NCBI GenBank assembly: GCA_012839215.1
Contig: DUNV01000056.1
Location: forward strand, 1-41,077
From: Bacillota bacterium
GTDB taxonomy: Bacteria; Bacillota; Dethiobacteria; DTU022; UBA8154
DNA length: 41,077 nt
Reading direction: 5' to 3'
Shown: piece after piece, positions 35,188 through 40,817 of the stretch
Position numbering within the stretch: position 1 is the stretch's first letter
Layout: each line of letters starts with the position of its first letter
Made by a program: the position numbers and the translations under genes
The notes under the pieces: generated by a model
The model's database searches: none
Seen by the model: only the letters and a program-made list of their open reading frames with translations
What the model was told of the DNA's origin: nothing

Positions 35188-35796
35188 TTATTTCGTCATC
35201 CCTAACCATTTTTCCTTCTTTTGTTTACCAGCGAACGCGGAACCCCGCCAGCGCTGAAAAAGATTATGATCCAGGGCAAATTGATCCAGCGCCTTGCCCA
35301 CCGACTGATTAACGAGATCATCTATCGTCTGGGGAAAATTATAAAAGGCAGGCATGGGAGGTAGCAGAATACCTCCCATTTCTGCAACGGTAGTCATTAA
35401 ACGGAGGTGACCCAGATGTAGCGGCGTTTCCCTGATCAATAAAACTAGTTTCCTTTTTTCTTTTAGGGCCACATCAGCGGCACGAACCAGCAAATTGGTG
35501 TTAAATGAATTAGCGATGGCAGAGAGGCTTTTTATGGAACAAGGTGCAATGAGCATCCCATCTGTCCTAAAGGAACCACTGGATATGGGCGCGGCAATAT
35601 CATCAATATGATAAACTTTTGACGCCATTTTTTCTACGTCCTCGGGGTTATAATCGCTCTCCAATTCAATAGTTCTCTTTCCCGCCCCGGTAATAATTAA
35701 ATGGCTTTCAATATTTAACCTTGACAGCGTTTCCAAGGTTCTTATCCCATAGATGGCACCTGTTGCACCAGAGATCCCGACAATTATTTTTACCAT
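35188..35796 (-). CDS. ubiX: UbiX family flavin prenyltransferase
   Basis: UbiX joins dimethylallyl phosphate to FMN to form prenylated FMN, the cofactor of UbiD decarboxylases. 202 aa. Landmarks: the flavin-binding VGISGATGAIYGIRTLE, then IAPCSIKSLSAIANSF, LVRAADVALKEKRKLVLL and RETPLHLGHLRLMTTVAEMG (in parts), and PPMPAFYN, all conserved. AAGGGAG precedes the ATG. It closes the minus-strand cluster ubiD - zinc ribbon - TAXI - TRAP - ubiX, 94 bp after the permease. Confidence 0.95.
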   Translation of the reverse strand: MVKIIVGISGATGAIYGIRTLETLSRLNIESHLIITGAGKRTIELESDYNPEDVEKMASKVYHIDDIAAPISSGSFRTDGMLIAPCSIKSLSAIANSFNTNLLVRAADVALKEKRKLVLLIRETPLHLGHLRLMTTVAEMGGILLPPMPAFYNFPQTIDDLVNQSVGKALDQFALDHNLFQRWRGSAFAGKQKKEKWLGMTK

Positions 35797-35890: not shown

Positions 35891-37849
35891 TTATTTTTCT
35901 ACTGTTTCCATGGGTTTACCAATAGGAATGTATTCGATGACTACCAGAACCACAAAAGCAAAAACTGCTACAAAAGAAATTCCCGGCGGAAGGGGAAGAA
36001 ACAGGCATACAGAGATTATAGCAAATAGAATCCTGACAACTATGCTTTTTCCCCTTTTTAAGAAACCCTCAAGGGCAATGCTGATCGCAAGTACAGCAAT
36101 AACTGCAAAAAACAATTCCCTTAAGATTTCCAATGCAGTTCCCTGAAGCGCCACAGCTGGATTGAAAATAAAGATAAAGGGTACGATAAAAGCAGGAATT
36201 GCCAACTTCATACCCTGAATAGCTGTTCTCATAAGATCAGCACCGGCTATAGATGCCGCAGCATAGGCAGCCAGACAAACAGGAGGAGTGATAAAAGAGA
36301 AACAACCAAAATAGAAAATAAACAAATGAGCTATTAAGGGATTTACCCCAATATCAATCAGGGCAGGGGCCACGAGGAGCGCCAGGAGCAGATATGCTGC
36401 TGTGGCGGGCATGCCCATGCCAAGTATTATGCTAGCTACCGCCGTCATAATTGTTAGAAGCAGAAGATTGTTTCCTGCTAGCTCTGTTAGAACCCTCGAT
36501 AAGGTCAGACCCAAACCGCTGTATGTTATTACACCAATGACCAGCCCTGCCGCACCACAGATAATAGATACCTCTAACATGCTACGGCTGGTGTTCTCAA
36601 AAAAGGTGAAGAAATCCTTTAGTTTGGTACGGATATCCTTTTTTAGTAGTCCGATTAACAATAACGATACCAGCGAATAAAGAGCTGCGCTTTCTGGGTT
36701 CAGATATAGGATAAAGATAACGTAAACAAGAACAGCAATAGGTATGAGGAAAAACCAACCCTCTTTTAGCACTTGAACCAATGAAGGAACTTGTTCAGGA
36801 GGCATTCCTTTTAGGCCATCCTTGGAAGCTCTTAGGTCCACCTGCATAAAAAGGCTCAGGTAATATAATGCTGCGGGGACAATGGCTACAAAAAGTACTT
36901 CCGCATAGGGAACGCCGAGAAATTCTGAAATAATAAAGGCAGCCGCACCCATGATTGGAGGGGTAATAACACCGCCTGTCGAAGCCACTGCAGAAACTGC
37001 AGCGGCAAAATAAGGTTTGTAGCCGATCTCTTTCATCATTGGGATCGTCAGGGTACCCGTAGCCGCCACGTTAGCCACAGCACTTCCGGATAACATACCA
37101 AAAAAAGCACTGGCCAAAATACCTGCTTTGGCAGGCCCTCCCCGGTAGCGTCCCATTACTGCCTCAGCAAGACCGAATAAGAATTTTGCTCCTCCGGTAC
37201 CAAACATAACTTGGGCAAAAAGGATAAAACCGAAGACAATAATCGCTGCAGTACGCAAAGCCACGCCATAAATGGAATCAGCACCCAGAAATAACTGGAT
37301 GACCATCCTTGACCAAGAGGTTTTTTGGATCTCCAGTATTCCCGGTACCAGGTAACCAAATTTAAAATATAGTATAAAAAACAAAACAACGGCAACTAGG
37401 ATCCAACCGCTTGTTCTTCTCGTTCCCTCAATAATTAAAAACAAGACGATAATACCCATAATAACCCTAAAGGGGGTTATTAGCCCAATTGAGCTGATCA
37501 AATCAGGATAACAGATAAAAATATATAAACCTGAAAATAGACTTAGCAAAGAAAAAACAAGATCATACCAGGGTATTCCCTTACGGGTGGATTTGGGAAA
37601 TGGCGGCAGGATAATATACATCAACGCCAGGAGTAAACCTAAAAACAACCCTAGAAATTGCTGGTTAAAAAATGAAACCCCAAAATAAAGGGGTACGTTC
37701 AGGATAAAAACAATACCGATAATAGGTATTGATATACCAAGTATTTTTTGGTACTGCCGTGCCGATCCATTTAGAACCCTAAAACGTTGCTTGTCCTCTT
37801 TTTCCTCCGAAAGTAATTCTTCCCTTTTTTCAGCTGATATTTCAGCCAT
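35891..37849 (-). CDS. TRAP transporter fused permease, 4TM/12TM type, TAXI-associated
   Basis: A 652-aa membrane protein with about 16-18 hydrophobic helices. It combines the small (DctQ-like, helices in ~35-165) and large (DctM-like) subunits in one chain, as is usual for TAXI systems. Landmarks of the large subunit: AVMGRYRGGPAKAGILASAF, GMLSGSAVANVAATGTLTIP, ASTGGVITPPIMGAAAFII, and LGMGMPATAAYLL with FSFITPPVCLAAYAAASIAG. TRAP systems take up organic acids driven by an ion gradient. A GGGAGGG stands about 11 nt before the ATG. Its receptor is encoded just upstream. Confidence 0.93.
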   Translation of the reverse strand: MAEISAEKREELLSEEKEDKQRFRVLNGSARQYQKILGISIPIIGIVFILNVPLYFGVSFFNQQFLGLFLGLLLALMYIILPPFPKSTRKGIPWYDLVFSLLSLFSGLYIFICYPDLISSIGLITPFRVIMGIIVLFLIIEGTRRTSGWILVAVVLFFILYFKFGYLVPGILEIQKTSWSRMVIQLFLGADSIYGVALRTAAIIVFGFILFAQVMFGTGGAKFLFGLAEAVMGRYRGGPAKAGILASAFFGMLSGSAVANVAATGTLTIPMMKEIGYKPYFAAAVSAVASTGGVITPPIMGAAAFIISEFLGVPYAEVLFVAIVPAALYYLSLFMQVDLRASKDGLKGMPPEQVPSLVQVLKEGWFFLIPIAVLVYVIFILYLNPESAALYSLVSLLLIGLLKKDIRTKLKDFFTFFENTSRSMLEVSIICGAAGLVIGVITYSGLGLTLSRVLTELAGNNLLLLTIMTAVASIILGMGMPATAAYLLLALLVAPALIDIGVNPLIAHLFIFYFGCFSFITPPVCLAAYAAASIAGADLMRTAIQGMKLAIPAFIVPFIFIFNPAVALQGTALEILRELFFAVIAVLAISIALEGFLKRGKSIVVRILFAIISVCLFLPLPPGISFVAVFAFVVLVVIEYIPIGKPMETVEK

Positions 37850-37969: not shown

Positions 37970-39046
37970 CTATTGTTCCATAGAAAGAAGACTTTCCTGC
38001 AAAGCATCCATTTCCTCGGTCCAGACTCCTTTATCTTTATAGAATTTAATCGCGCCGGGATGGTAAGGCAACGTCGCCTGTTCAGATACAAATCTATCGA
38101 TCGTCCACTCTTTTAACCTTGGGTGAATACCGGATAGCTCTTCATTGTTTTCCCAGATAGCTTCCACAATGGCATACGCTGCTTCCTCTGAAAGATCGAT
38201 CCTCCCTATCAGGTAGGCATCATAAGCCATCATGGTTATCGGTTCCCTTACACCGGTAAAACCTGGTCCGGGCTCAACATCAATGGGGTATAATGGAAAT
38301 TCCTCCTGGGCCCTTTTAACCGCCTCGGGAGAAGAATCAAAGGAGAGAAAGCGTGCCCCTCTAGTTGCCTCCAGTTCCTCCACTAGGGCAAATCCAACGT
38401 TGGCCGAACCGGCACAGTCAGCGCGTCTTTCAATAACTGCCTTGACACCATCAGATATACTTGGGACAGAAACGATATTCACATCATTTTCTGTCAAGTT
38501 CTGGTTTGCCAAAAAGGCCTTGGCCTGGGCAGTAATGCCTGCCGCCCCCGTATAATTTAAAATATAACTTTTCCCCTTCAAATCTTCAGCAGTTTTTATA
38601 CCGGAATCTTCAGCAACAAGCACACTGTAAATAGAGAAGGAACCATTCGTAAGCAACCGGGCAGGAAAACCTTTGCCTCCGGATATTGCTGCATATTCCG
38701 ATTCCCCTAGCCAGCCCATCTGGGCATCCCAACAATTTAGGACCCCCATATCCATTTCCCCAGTCGTAAACATAGGAAACCATTCAATTGGCCCGGAAGT
38801 AGCAATCGCTTTAACTTCCACAGGGGTATGCTTGCTGGCCACCGTGGCAATGCCGGAACCCATCGCATTATAAAGCGAACCCATCGCATGGGTGCCAATA
38901 GTAAGCATAGATGGAAGCCCATCAACCCCCTCCCCATTAGTAGCCGAAGTTTCCTCCTGCATCCCATTGCCACAACCTATAACCTGGATGGCTATCAAAA
39001 GCATAAGCAGACAAACTATCAGATATAAATGATTTTTCCTTTCCAT
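37970..39046 (-). CDS. TAXI family TRAP transporter solute receptor, lipoprotein
   Basis: About 358 aa from ATG 39046, which has GGAGGG 7 nt upstream; the 12-residue longer frame lacks a site. Signal peptide with hydrophobic core YLIVCLLMLLIAI and lipobox VIGC, Cys25 lipidated. The mature domain shows TIGTHAMGSLYNAMGSGIAT, a TAXI-type opening, FTTGEMDMGVLN, LKGKSYILNYTGAAG and ERRADCAGSANVGF. It captures the substrate outside the membrane for the fused permease encoded next. The substrate is unknown; the adjacent UbiD/UbiX genes suggest a carboxylic acid to be decarboxylated. Confidence 0.93.
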   Translation of the reverse strand: MERKNHLYLIVCLLMLLIAIQVIGCGNGMQEETSATNGEGVDGLPSMLTIGTHAMGSLYNAMGSGIATVASKHTPVEVKAIATSGPIEWFPMFTTGEMDMGVLNCWDAQMGWLGESEYAAISGGKGFPARLLTNGSFSIYSVLVAEDSGIKTAEDLKGKSYILNYTGAAGITAQAKAFLANQNLTENDVNIVSVPSISDGVKAVIERRADCAGSANVGFALVEELEATRGARFLSFDSSPEAVKRAQEEFPLYPIDVEPGPGFTGVREPITMMAYDAYLIGRIDLSEEAAYAIVEAIWENNEELSGIHPRLKEWTIDRFVSEQATLPYHPGAIKFYKDKGVWTEEMDALQESLLSMEQ

Positions 39047-39198
39047 GTTGACCCTCCTTCTTTTGTCCAAACAATACGTCATCCCTGCGCCTCACAAAAT
39101 AATTACATCAGCAGCCAAACACTGGGTAGAACAGCCTGTCCATCACCTTCCTTACCAATCCTTCTTACCCTTAGATGATTTTGAACAAAAATTTTACC

Positions 39199-39351
39199 CT
39201 AAAGGCGTTCATCTATTTCCGGGCTATCTACATCAAAAAATTGTTCCTGGCAAAAAGGGCAGATCAATTTAAGATCAGAATGCCTGAGTTCGTAATCGCA
39301 ACAAAAACGGCCGGCACACTTCGGGCACTTTACCCAGAATATTCTTTCCAT
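39199..39351 (-). CDS. 50-aa zinc-ribbon protein between ubiD and the TAXI receptor
   Basis: A short gene, easily missed. It has an excellent AAGGAGG 9 nt before the ATG at 39351 and a TAG stop at 39199-39201. The product begins MERIFWVKCPKCAGRFCC and has a second pair in LICPFCQEQFFD, so CPKC...CPFC with 18 residues between: a classic zinc ribbon, rubredoxin-like in size. It follows ubiD by 34 bp. Size, cysteine pattern and place next to ubiD resemble the small D subunit (VdcD type) of hydroxyarylic acid decarboxylases, which are BCD operons of UbiX, UbiD and a small zinc protein. The functional link is inference. Confidence 0.75.
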   Translation of the reverse strand: MERIFWVKCPKCAGRFCCDYELRHSDLKLICPFCQEQFFDVDSPEIDERL

Positions 39352-39385
39352 GAAAAATTGCCTCCTTAACAATTGTATTTACTAT

Positions 39386-40768
39386 CTATTTAATCCACTC
39401 GTCCAATTTTATCCGCCGCATTGCCTCCTCTGGAACCCTAAACTGTTCCGGGAAGGCTTTATCAAGTGGTTTTGTTGCGTCAATAATCATTTTATTGTGC
39501 CCCATAGCTGTGGTAAAAACAGTGTGAACATTGTCCACCAGTGTAATATCACGTTTGGGATCCACCATGGTTAGAATAGCCCAAACCACTTCTTTCTCAT
39601 TAAACACATCAATATCGTCATCAACCACAACGACTATTTGAAAAGTCCATGATTCTAGAAGCGCCGCCATGCCGGCAATTTTTGCATCCCCTTCGCGTTT
39701 TTTATCAATGGAGACATAGCAAGCTAGCCTTCCAATCCCGGAATGGGGCATATGCACGGCCTTTACATTGCCATATCTGCTGTTAACAGCATTATAGACG
39801 CTGCCTTCCTTGGGCAGGGCGCCTAGGTTCCAGTGCCCTTCATGGCCGGAAAAAATATCCTGTAGGATGGCATTTTTACGCCTAGTGATTGCTGTCACCC
39901 TTACCGCCTGGCGAATGCATTGGGCCTGGTAATGCCTAGTCACTTCACCAAAGGGATCAACAATTTCCCTTTCCCCCGGTAGAACCTCCCCCTCAAGTAT
40001 AATCTCTGCATCAGCGGGAACTAAAAAATCCCTGCCCCAGGTTTCGGATTCAACTAGGCGAAGCGGTTCATGCAAAAAGGAGCCGACACCGGCGTAATCA
40101 TCTGCATCATAGGGGCTCAGCGCCAACGAACCGAGATAGAATGCAGGGTGGTGGCCGAGAACCTGCACGACGGGAGCCGGTTCGTTACGTTCTGTATATT
40201 TACTTAGGATTCTTTCCAGGTGGGGGGTATGTATGGAAGCTCCCAATCTCTGTGAACCCTTGTAAAAAGTTTTGGCAAAGGTGATATCATAGATACCGGT
40301 GTCGGGGTCTTTCATGATCAGTGTCATGGTAAAAACCGGGCTTAAATCCATCTCATAATGCCGCACCCCGGGTAAAACTGCCGGATTGGCCTCAGCCCCT
40401 CGCAAAATTATTTCTTTTACCGGGGCTTGATCTTTTCCTATCTCCACCGGGGGGATGGTTTCCCTTTCCAGGCGGGCATATTCTAAACTCAAAGGAAGGT
40501 TTGGCTGATCCACGGGCCAGTCAAGAGCAAGGGCACACCTCTCCCTTTTTGCAAAAACATTGGACACGATAGAAATATCCGTATCTTCACCTTTTAAATC
40601 CCTGGCATTTTTGAATAACACTAGGGGAAATTTCCCCTTTTTGGTCAAATGCTCAAGAATAGCTGTTACATCGAAGTTGTTCGGATCGACAGGGCGTGTA
40701 ACTTCCACAAAATCATTAGGCAGTTCATTTTTAACCTTTTCTAAAAATGATCGCAAATCTTTTGCCAA
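39386..40768 (-). CDS. UbiD family prenyl-FMN-dependent decarboxylase
   Basis: About 460 aa. UbiD enzymes (de)carboxylate aromatic or alpha,beta-unsaturated acids using prenylated FMN and a metal. Visible landmarks: AKDLRSFLEKV at the N-terminus, a prFMN/metal-binding segment TFYKGSQRLGASIH with Arg174, the acidic catalytic segment ILEGEVLPGEREIVDPFGE around residues 257-275, and NSRYGNVKAVHMPHSGIG and VDDDIDVFNEKEVVWAI later. Closest known classes are UbiD, VdcC/phenolic acid decarboxylases and related anaerobic enzymes; the substrate is not readable. The frame runs to GTG 40777, but that codon lies within the ribosome site GAGAGGTGA, so TTG 40768 is the likely start. It is the first gene of the cluster and divergent from a LysR gene. 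Confidence 0.93.
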   Translation of the reverse strand: MAKDLRSFLEKVKNELPNDFVEVTRPVDPNNFDVTAILEHLTKKGKFPLVLFKNARDLKGEDTDISIVSNVFAKRERCALALDWPVDQPNLPLSLEYARLERETIPPVEIGKDQAPVKEIILRGAEANPAVLPGVRHYEMDLSPVFTMTLIMKDPDTGIYDITFAKTFYKGSQRLGASIHTPHLERILSKYTERNEPAPVVQVLGHHPAFYLGSLALSPYDADDYAGVGSFLHEPLRLVESETWGRDFLVPADAEIILEGEVLPGEREIVDPFGEVTRHYQAQCIRQAVRVTAITRRKNAILQDIFSGHEGHWNLGALPKEGSVYNAVNSRYGNVKAVHMPHSGIGRLACYVSIDKKREGDAKIAGMAALLESWTFQIVVVVDDDIDVFNEKEVVWAILTMVDPKRDITLVDNVHTVFTTAMGHNKMIIDATKPLDKAFPEQFRVPEEAMRRIKLDEWIK

Positions 40769-40817
40769 TCTGCTCACCTCTCATATATTTTTTTAAATAT
40801 TGCTAATCCTCAACCGG

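Follow-up and report, generated by a model that had tools for sequence, protein, structure and literature searches.

UbiD enzymes are sought for the carboxylation of aromatic compounds, and some of them cannot be made active in the laboratory. In the 41,077-nucleotide stretch of DNA analysed here (hereafter, the window), a ubiD-like gene is followed by a reading frame of 50 codons, which raises the question of whether this frame is a gene and whether its product serves the decarboxylase. The lack of a 50-aa subunit, which gene callers may skip, would be one simple explanation for such inactivity. The preliminary description had considered the frame a real gene and its product a possible D-type subunit of the decarboxylase, divergent from the VdcD proteins.

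A Short Zinc-Ribbon Gene Downstream of ubiD

The preliminary description, which gave no strand, had listed an AAGGAGG sequence, an ATG, a CPKC...CPFC cysteine pattern and a position 34 bp after ubiD, and all of these were found on the minus strand (Table 1), the ubiD stop lying at 39386-39388; the plus-strand frame at 39199-39351 is unrelated to the ribbon. The minus-strand gene translates as MERIFWVKCPKCAGRFCCDYELRHSDLKLICPFCQEQFFDVDSPEIDERL, followed by the stop. A purine-rich stretch resembling AAGGAGG also precedes most of the ribbon homologues. Along the direction of transcription, the cluster is ordered ubiD, ribbon, TAXI solute-binding protein, fused TRAP permease and ubiX, and the start of a LysR-like gene, read from the sequence without a search, lies on the plus strand and runs off the window end. 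The TRAP transporter and the UbiX encoded in the same cluster as the partner UbiD suggest that an organic acid may be imported and then carboxylated or decarboxylated with prFMN.

Table 1. Features of the ubiD cluster in the window
Feature	Positions	Strand	Evidence
ubiD-like decarboxylase, invariant partner	39386..40777	minus	Pfam UbiD_N/UbiD/UbiD_C over cut-offs; tree; residues
Shine-Dalgarno AAGGAGG of the ribbon gene	39361..39367	minus	complement of CCTCCTT, 9 nt upstream of the ATG
50-aa zinc-ribbon gene, 50 codons	39199..39351	minus	stop 39199-39201, ATG 39351-39349; homologues and purifying selection
TAXI-family TRAP solute-binding protein, variable partner	37970..39082	minus	profile search
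TRAP transporter fused permease, variable partner	35891..37849	minus	profile search
ubiX flavin prenyltransferase, prFMN cofactor maker	35188..35796	minus	profile search

When every one of the 98 class genomes was searched, six homologues were recovered, 72-88% identical, all of them in the family of the window and each beside a ubiD sequence. Across the seven closest ribbon sequences 28 positions were invariant, the four cysteines among them, and the dN/dS ratio between near relatives, taken from pairs with unsaturated synonymous sites, was about 0.05-0.13; judging from these substitutions, the ribbon gene is under strong purifying selection. Since these homologues lie beside ubiD in six genomes, dN/dS is low and distant homologues in other phyla occupy the same position, the frame is more than a chance occurrence, and its earlier recognition as a real gene was well founded. 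Two further weak matches of the class-level search (L009 and L010) were rejected, as they correspond to a different acidic zinc-ribbon protein of ~148 aa encoded between efp-like and spoIIIAA-like genes.

The protein carries two CxxC knuckles (C9, C12, C31 and C34), of which the cysteines, together with P10 and P32, were invariant among 20 aligned members; the sequence MERIFWV precedes the first CxxC, and the ribbon ends near an IDER motif. The AlphaFold2 model of the window protein (pLDDT 89.9) was ribbon-like, and the 50 matches listed by Foldseek were generic ribbons, mostly ribosomal, the closest folds being of the ribosomal S27e type and none of the matches listed having an E value under 0.001. 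As zinc ribbons are common, such a shared fold says little. No family was assigned to the window ribbon by the Pfam and NCBIfam scans, in which certain distant members passed only the generic MJ0042_CXXC or DUF7560 cut-offs, and the search of PDB sequences returned only chance zinc-finger matches. No description of this ribbon family was found in a literature search of partial coverage.

Linkage of the Ribbon to One UbiD Clade

The distribution of the ribbon was assessed with ribbon peptides only, UbiD being left out of the query. A scan of public genome contigs recovered 14 loci, including records labelled Chloroflexi, Actinomycetes, Mycolicibacterium vaccae, Deferrisomatales, Desulfotomaculum and Thermincola, and further ribbons came from 399 sampled genomes of the phylum; a plasmid search found none. 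After the removal of duplicates, 21 distinct ribbons remained in 19 genomes of Bacillota, Chloroflexi, Actinomycetota and Desulfobacterota, many of these genomes being metagenome assemblies, some with doubtful labels. All 21 ribbons were placed directly 3′ of a UbiD sequence, which was complete in 19 cases, cut by a contig end in one and reduced to a remnant in another, with gaps ranging from –1 to +64 nt; in the two mycobacteria, the start codon of the ribbon gene (ATG) overlaps the stop codon of ubiD. The conservation next to ubiD that had been proposed as a check was thus observed throughout, the four cysteines and the post-ubiD position being kept in 21/21 homologues, rather than the lack of conserved frame or cysteines that had been named as refuting evidence. 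The other neighbours (TRAP/TAXI, UbiX and regulators) vary among the loci: several ribbons have no TRAP/TAXI genes nearby, and in the mycobacterial cluster a component of an ABC transporter takes their place, so that UbiD is the one neighbour that never changes. Given that the ribbon gene comes directly after ubiD in four or more bacterial phyla, the 50-aa protein is very probably a built-in UbiD helper subunit.

Several of these loci presented particular arrangements. Two tandem ubiD-ribbon pairs, in which each UbiD is followed by its own divergent ribbon, were found in genome G466 (L067, 7661-10969), while in G060 (L021, 1805-2107) the ribbon gene is intact and only ~40 residues of the UbiD before it are left, universal-stress-like genes lying upstream; either a deletion or an assembly join would account for this configuration. 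In M. vaccae (L032, 4337-10930), UbiD, ribbon and UbiX are accompanied by an ABC transporter permease, a formamidase and a nearby FAD hydroxylase, a gene set that weakly suggests the breakdown of an N-heteroaromatic acid. The L025 record is labelled Desulfovibrio sp. and its genome was placed in the Bacillota family of the window, so that the public label looks wrong.

Conversely, starting from UbiD, the neighbourhoods of the closest UbiDs in the phylum sample were checked for any small protein carrying two CxxC motifs. The ribbon was present beside the most similar UbiDs and absent beside the less similar ones, the true VdcC having VdcD. In a maximum-likelihood tree of 48 UbiDs, which HmfF and AroY entered from the PDB, the 19 ribbon-linked UbiDs formed one clade with 99/96 support. 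A further UbiD inside this clade (L078) had no adjacent ribbon, and its genome carries one beside a close paralogue. Apart from VdcC, no sampled UbiD outside the clade had a ribbon, the neighbourhoods of HmfF and AroY lying outside this check, and none was found beside the four other UbiDs of the window's genome. VdcC itself was placed far from the ribbon clade, with ribbon-less UbiD groups between them, which favours, without proving it, an origin of the ribbon separate from that of VdcD.

Comparison with VdcD

The closest known system is that of VdcD/ShdD/BsdD (NF041205; PDB 7AE4, 7AE5 and 7AE7), the subunit D of hydroxyarylic acid decarboxylases, which shares with the ribbon the nature of a small two-CxxC zinc ribbon encoded next to UbiD and predicted to be an activating subunit. 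VdcD, whose zinc ribbon is formed by C3, C6, C28 and C31, is bound to VdcC in a 6:6 complex, is needed for VdcC activity and touches the loops carrying catalytic residues (PMC8379154). However, VdcD has 68-76 aa and the ribbon about 50, its first CxxC starts at residue 3 whereas the ribbon has the MERIFWV strand before this motif, and the proline-rich C-terminal tail characteristic of VdcD was absent in all ribbon members examined.

Moreover, homology between them was undetectable at the sequence level. The VdcD model NF041205 (cut-off of 30 bits) found no match in the window ribbon (E up to 1) or in eight diverse ribbon members (E up to 0.1), and its genome-wide search of G000 found no VdcD. 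The profile alignment of the ribbon family with VdcD by hhalign reached a probability of 1.6%; both CxxC pairs match up in it, as does an acidic E-x-I stretch. The partner enzymes also differ, the window UbiD scoring 198 bits against the VdcC model NF041204, the cut-off of which is 650, and belonging to a separate clade. Among the VdcC residues that bridge to VdcD, E31 and D173 are absent in the window UbiD and R133 was present in 9/19 enzymes, with no conserved set.

The D-type role put forward in the preliminary description is therefore supported by the zinc ribbon, its cysteines and its position after ubiD, while its view of the protein as a divergent VdcD found no support in the suggested HMM comparison or in the placement of the partner outside the VdcC clade. 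The ribbon would be better called a functional analogue of VdcD. Considering the profile results, the missing tail and a UbiD partner far from VdcC, it looks like a second recruitment of a zinc ribbon to a UbiD, probably independent of VdcD, and such a second partner, with no apparent relation to VdcD, would point to more than one origin of this mode of activation.

Proposed Role of the Ribbon

By analogy with the D subunit of VdcCD, an integral activating subunit is the most likely role. We consider it probable that the ribbon is a zinc-binding, stoichiometric accessory subunit of UbiD, recruited independently rather than being a divergent VdcD. Accordingly worded as a mechanism, the ribbon would bind zinc and its partner UbiD, would keep the loops around the prFMN active site in a working conformation, as VdcD does for VdcC, and the UbiD activated in this way would decarboxylate an imported (hetero)aromatic acid. 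A model in which UbiD and ribbon were joined into one chain by reading L028 through its stop, for modelling only, had a pLDDT of 80.2 and a pTM of 0.73, and gives no interface information. Two observations count against the subunit reading, namely the incomplete conservation of the VdcC residues that bridge to VdcD and the presence within the clade of L078, a UbiD with no ribbon next to it.

Alternatively, the ribbon may act only in passing, as a maturation factor or chaperone that, like LpdD or PhdC, helps prFMN to be loaded or oxidised and has no place in the finished enzyme. Small UbiD-linked proteins with such a role are known (PMC10865409; PMC13040415), and the lysine of the partner enzyme at the position of Fdc1 R173 touches a residue linked to cofactor maturation (PMC5818171). 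LpdD and PhdC, the prFMN chaperone/maturase proteins, resemble the ribbon in being small accessory proteins of UbiD systems, but they are not described as zinc ribbons and are not thought to remain as subunits (PMC10865409; PMC13040415), a distinction drawn from published descriptions. With its 50 aa and apparent zinc ribbon, the protein has an architecture much closer to VdcD than to LpdD-type proteins, and its strict 1:1 pairing with UbiD, tandem pairs included, fits a subunit better, which makes a transient factor unlikely.

It could also be argued that the two families share an ancestor, the ribbon being a genuine VdcD that was passed down along with its UbiD and has diverged to an extreme degree, in agreement with the same cysteine layout, the same position after ubiD and the register of the hhalign alignment. 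We regard this as quite improbable, given the negligible hhalign probability, the failure of NF041205 to match, the generic and mostly ribosomal ribbons among the 50 Foldseek matches listed, and the ribbon-less UbiD groups between the two clades, by which common descent would need several losses. Finally, nucleic acid is often bound by zinc ribbons and the closest folds are ribosomal, as would suit an operon regulator with no part in the enzyme; such a role is very improbable, as the ribbon stays with a single enzyme clade in different phyla, next to regulators of differing types (LysR-like in the window, as read from sequence, Lrp-type in L068 and L069, and sigma-54 type in L071), and several of its conserved positions are hydrophobic or acidic (FWV, EID).

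Altered Active Site of the Partner UbiD

The active-site columns were aligned by sequence with ShVdcC and HmfF, those of Arg and Leu being assigned through the published R168/173 and L425/439 numbering and those of Glu by the PFGE motif. The window UbiD has K169 at the position of Fdc1 R173, V273 (followed by D274) at that of E277 and F421 at that of L439, so that E278, corresponding to E282, is the only one of these four canonical residues kept. The partner enzyme is thus a member of the UbiD family by fold, and in its sequence the canonical active site is absent. The Lys, Val/Cys and Phe changes were found as a set in 11 of the 19 ribbon-linked UbiDs; these 11 make up the window's subclade, one fully supported branch. 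The remaining eight keep Arg and Glu, with Leu in seven of them, and Arg and Glu/Asp were kept in all 29 comparison UbiDs; for Leu, the comparison extended only to ShVdcC and, by way of the published numbering, to Fdc1.

The R173K variant of Fdc1 had no detectable activity (PMC5818171), and so the subclade would have either a changed network, for instance with Asp274, or a changed reaction or substrate. Its altered residues offer a direct test of the natural variability of the "essential" Arg-Glu network. As the ribbon also accompanies canonical UbiDs, it did not arise because of these active-site changes. A ribbon ending in [IL]D[ED]R was found with 9/11 altered UbiDs and with 0/8 canonical ones, an association that could reflect the shared history of one clade. 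More speculatively, the subclade may be a UbiD class with a remodelled site, in which Lys replaces the essential Arg, Val/Cys followed by Asp replaces Glu277 and Phe replaces Leu439, and which is active only together with its ribbon. The conserved MERIFWV and IDER ends of the ribbon would then complete the altered site or keep it in place, opening it to a substrate or reaction beyond the reach of canonical UbiDs; we regard this as possible but rather doubtful.

HmfF (PDB 6H6V and 6H6X), a furan-2,5-dicarboxylate decarboxylase, is the UbiD of known structure closest to the partner enzyme (192 bits), but it lies outside the ribbon clade and has the canonical R-E-E residues. In the four other UbiDs of the window's genome (L011-L014), the canonical Arg is retained and the E277 position is acidic; two of the four genes are direct neighbours on a contig that also carries a ubiX.
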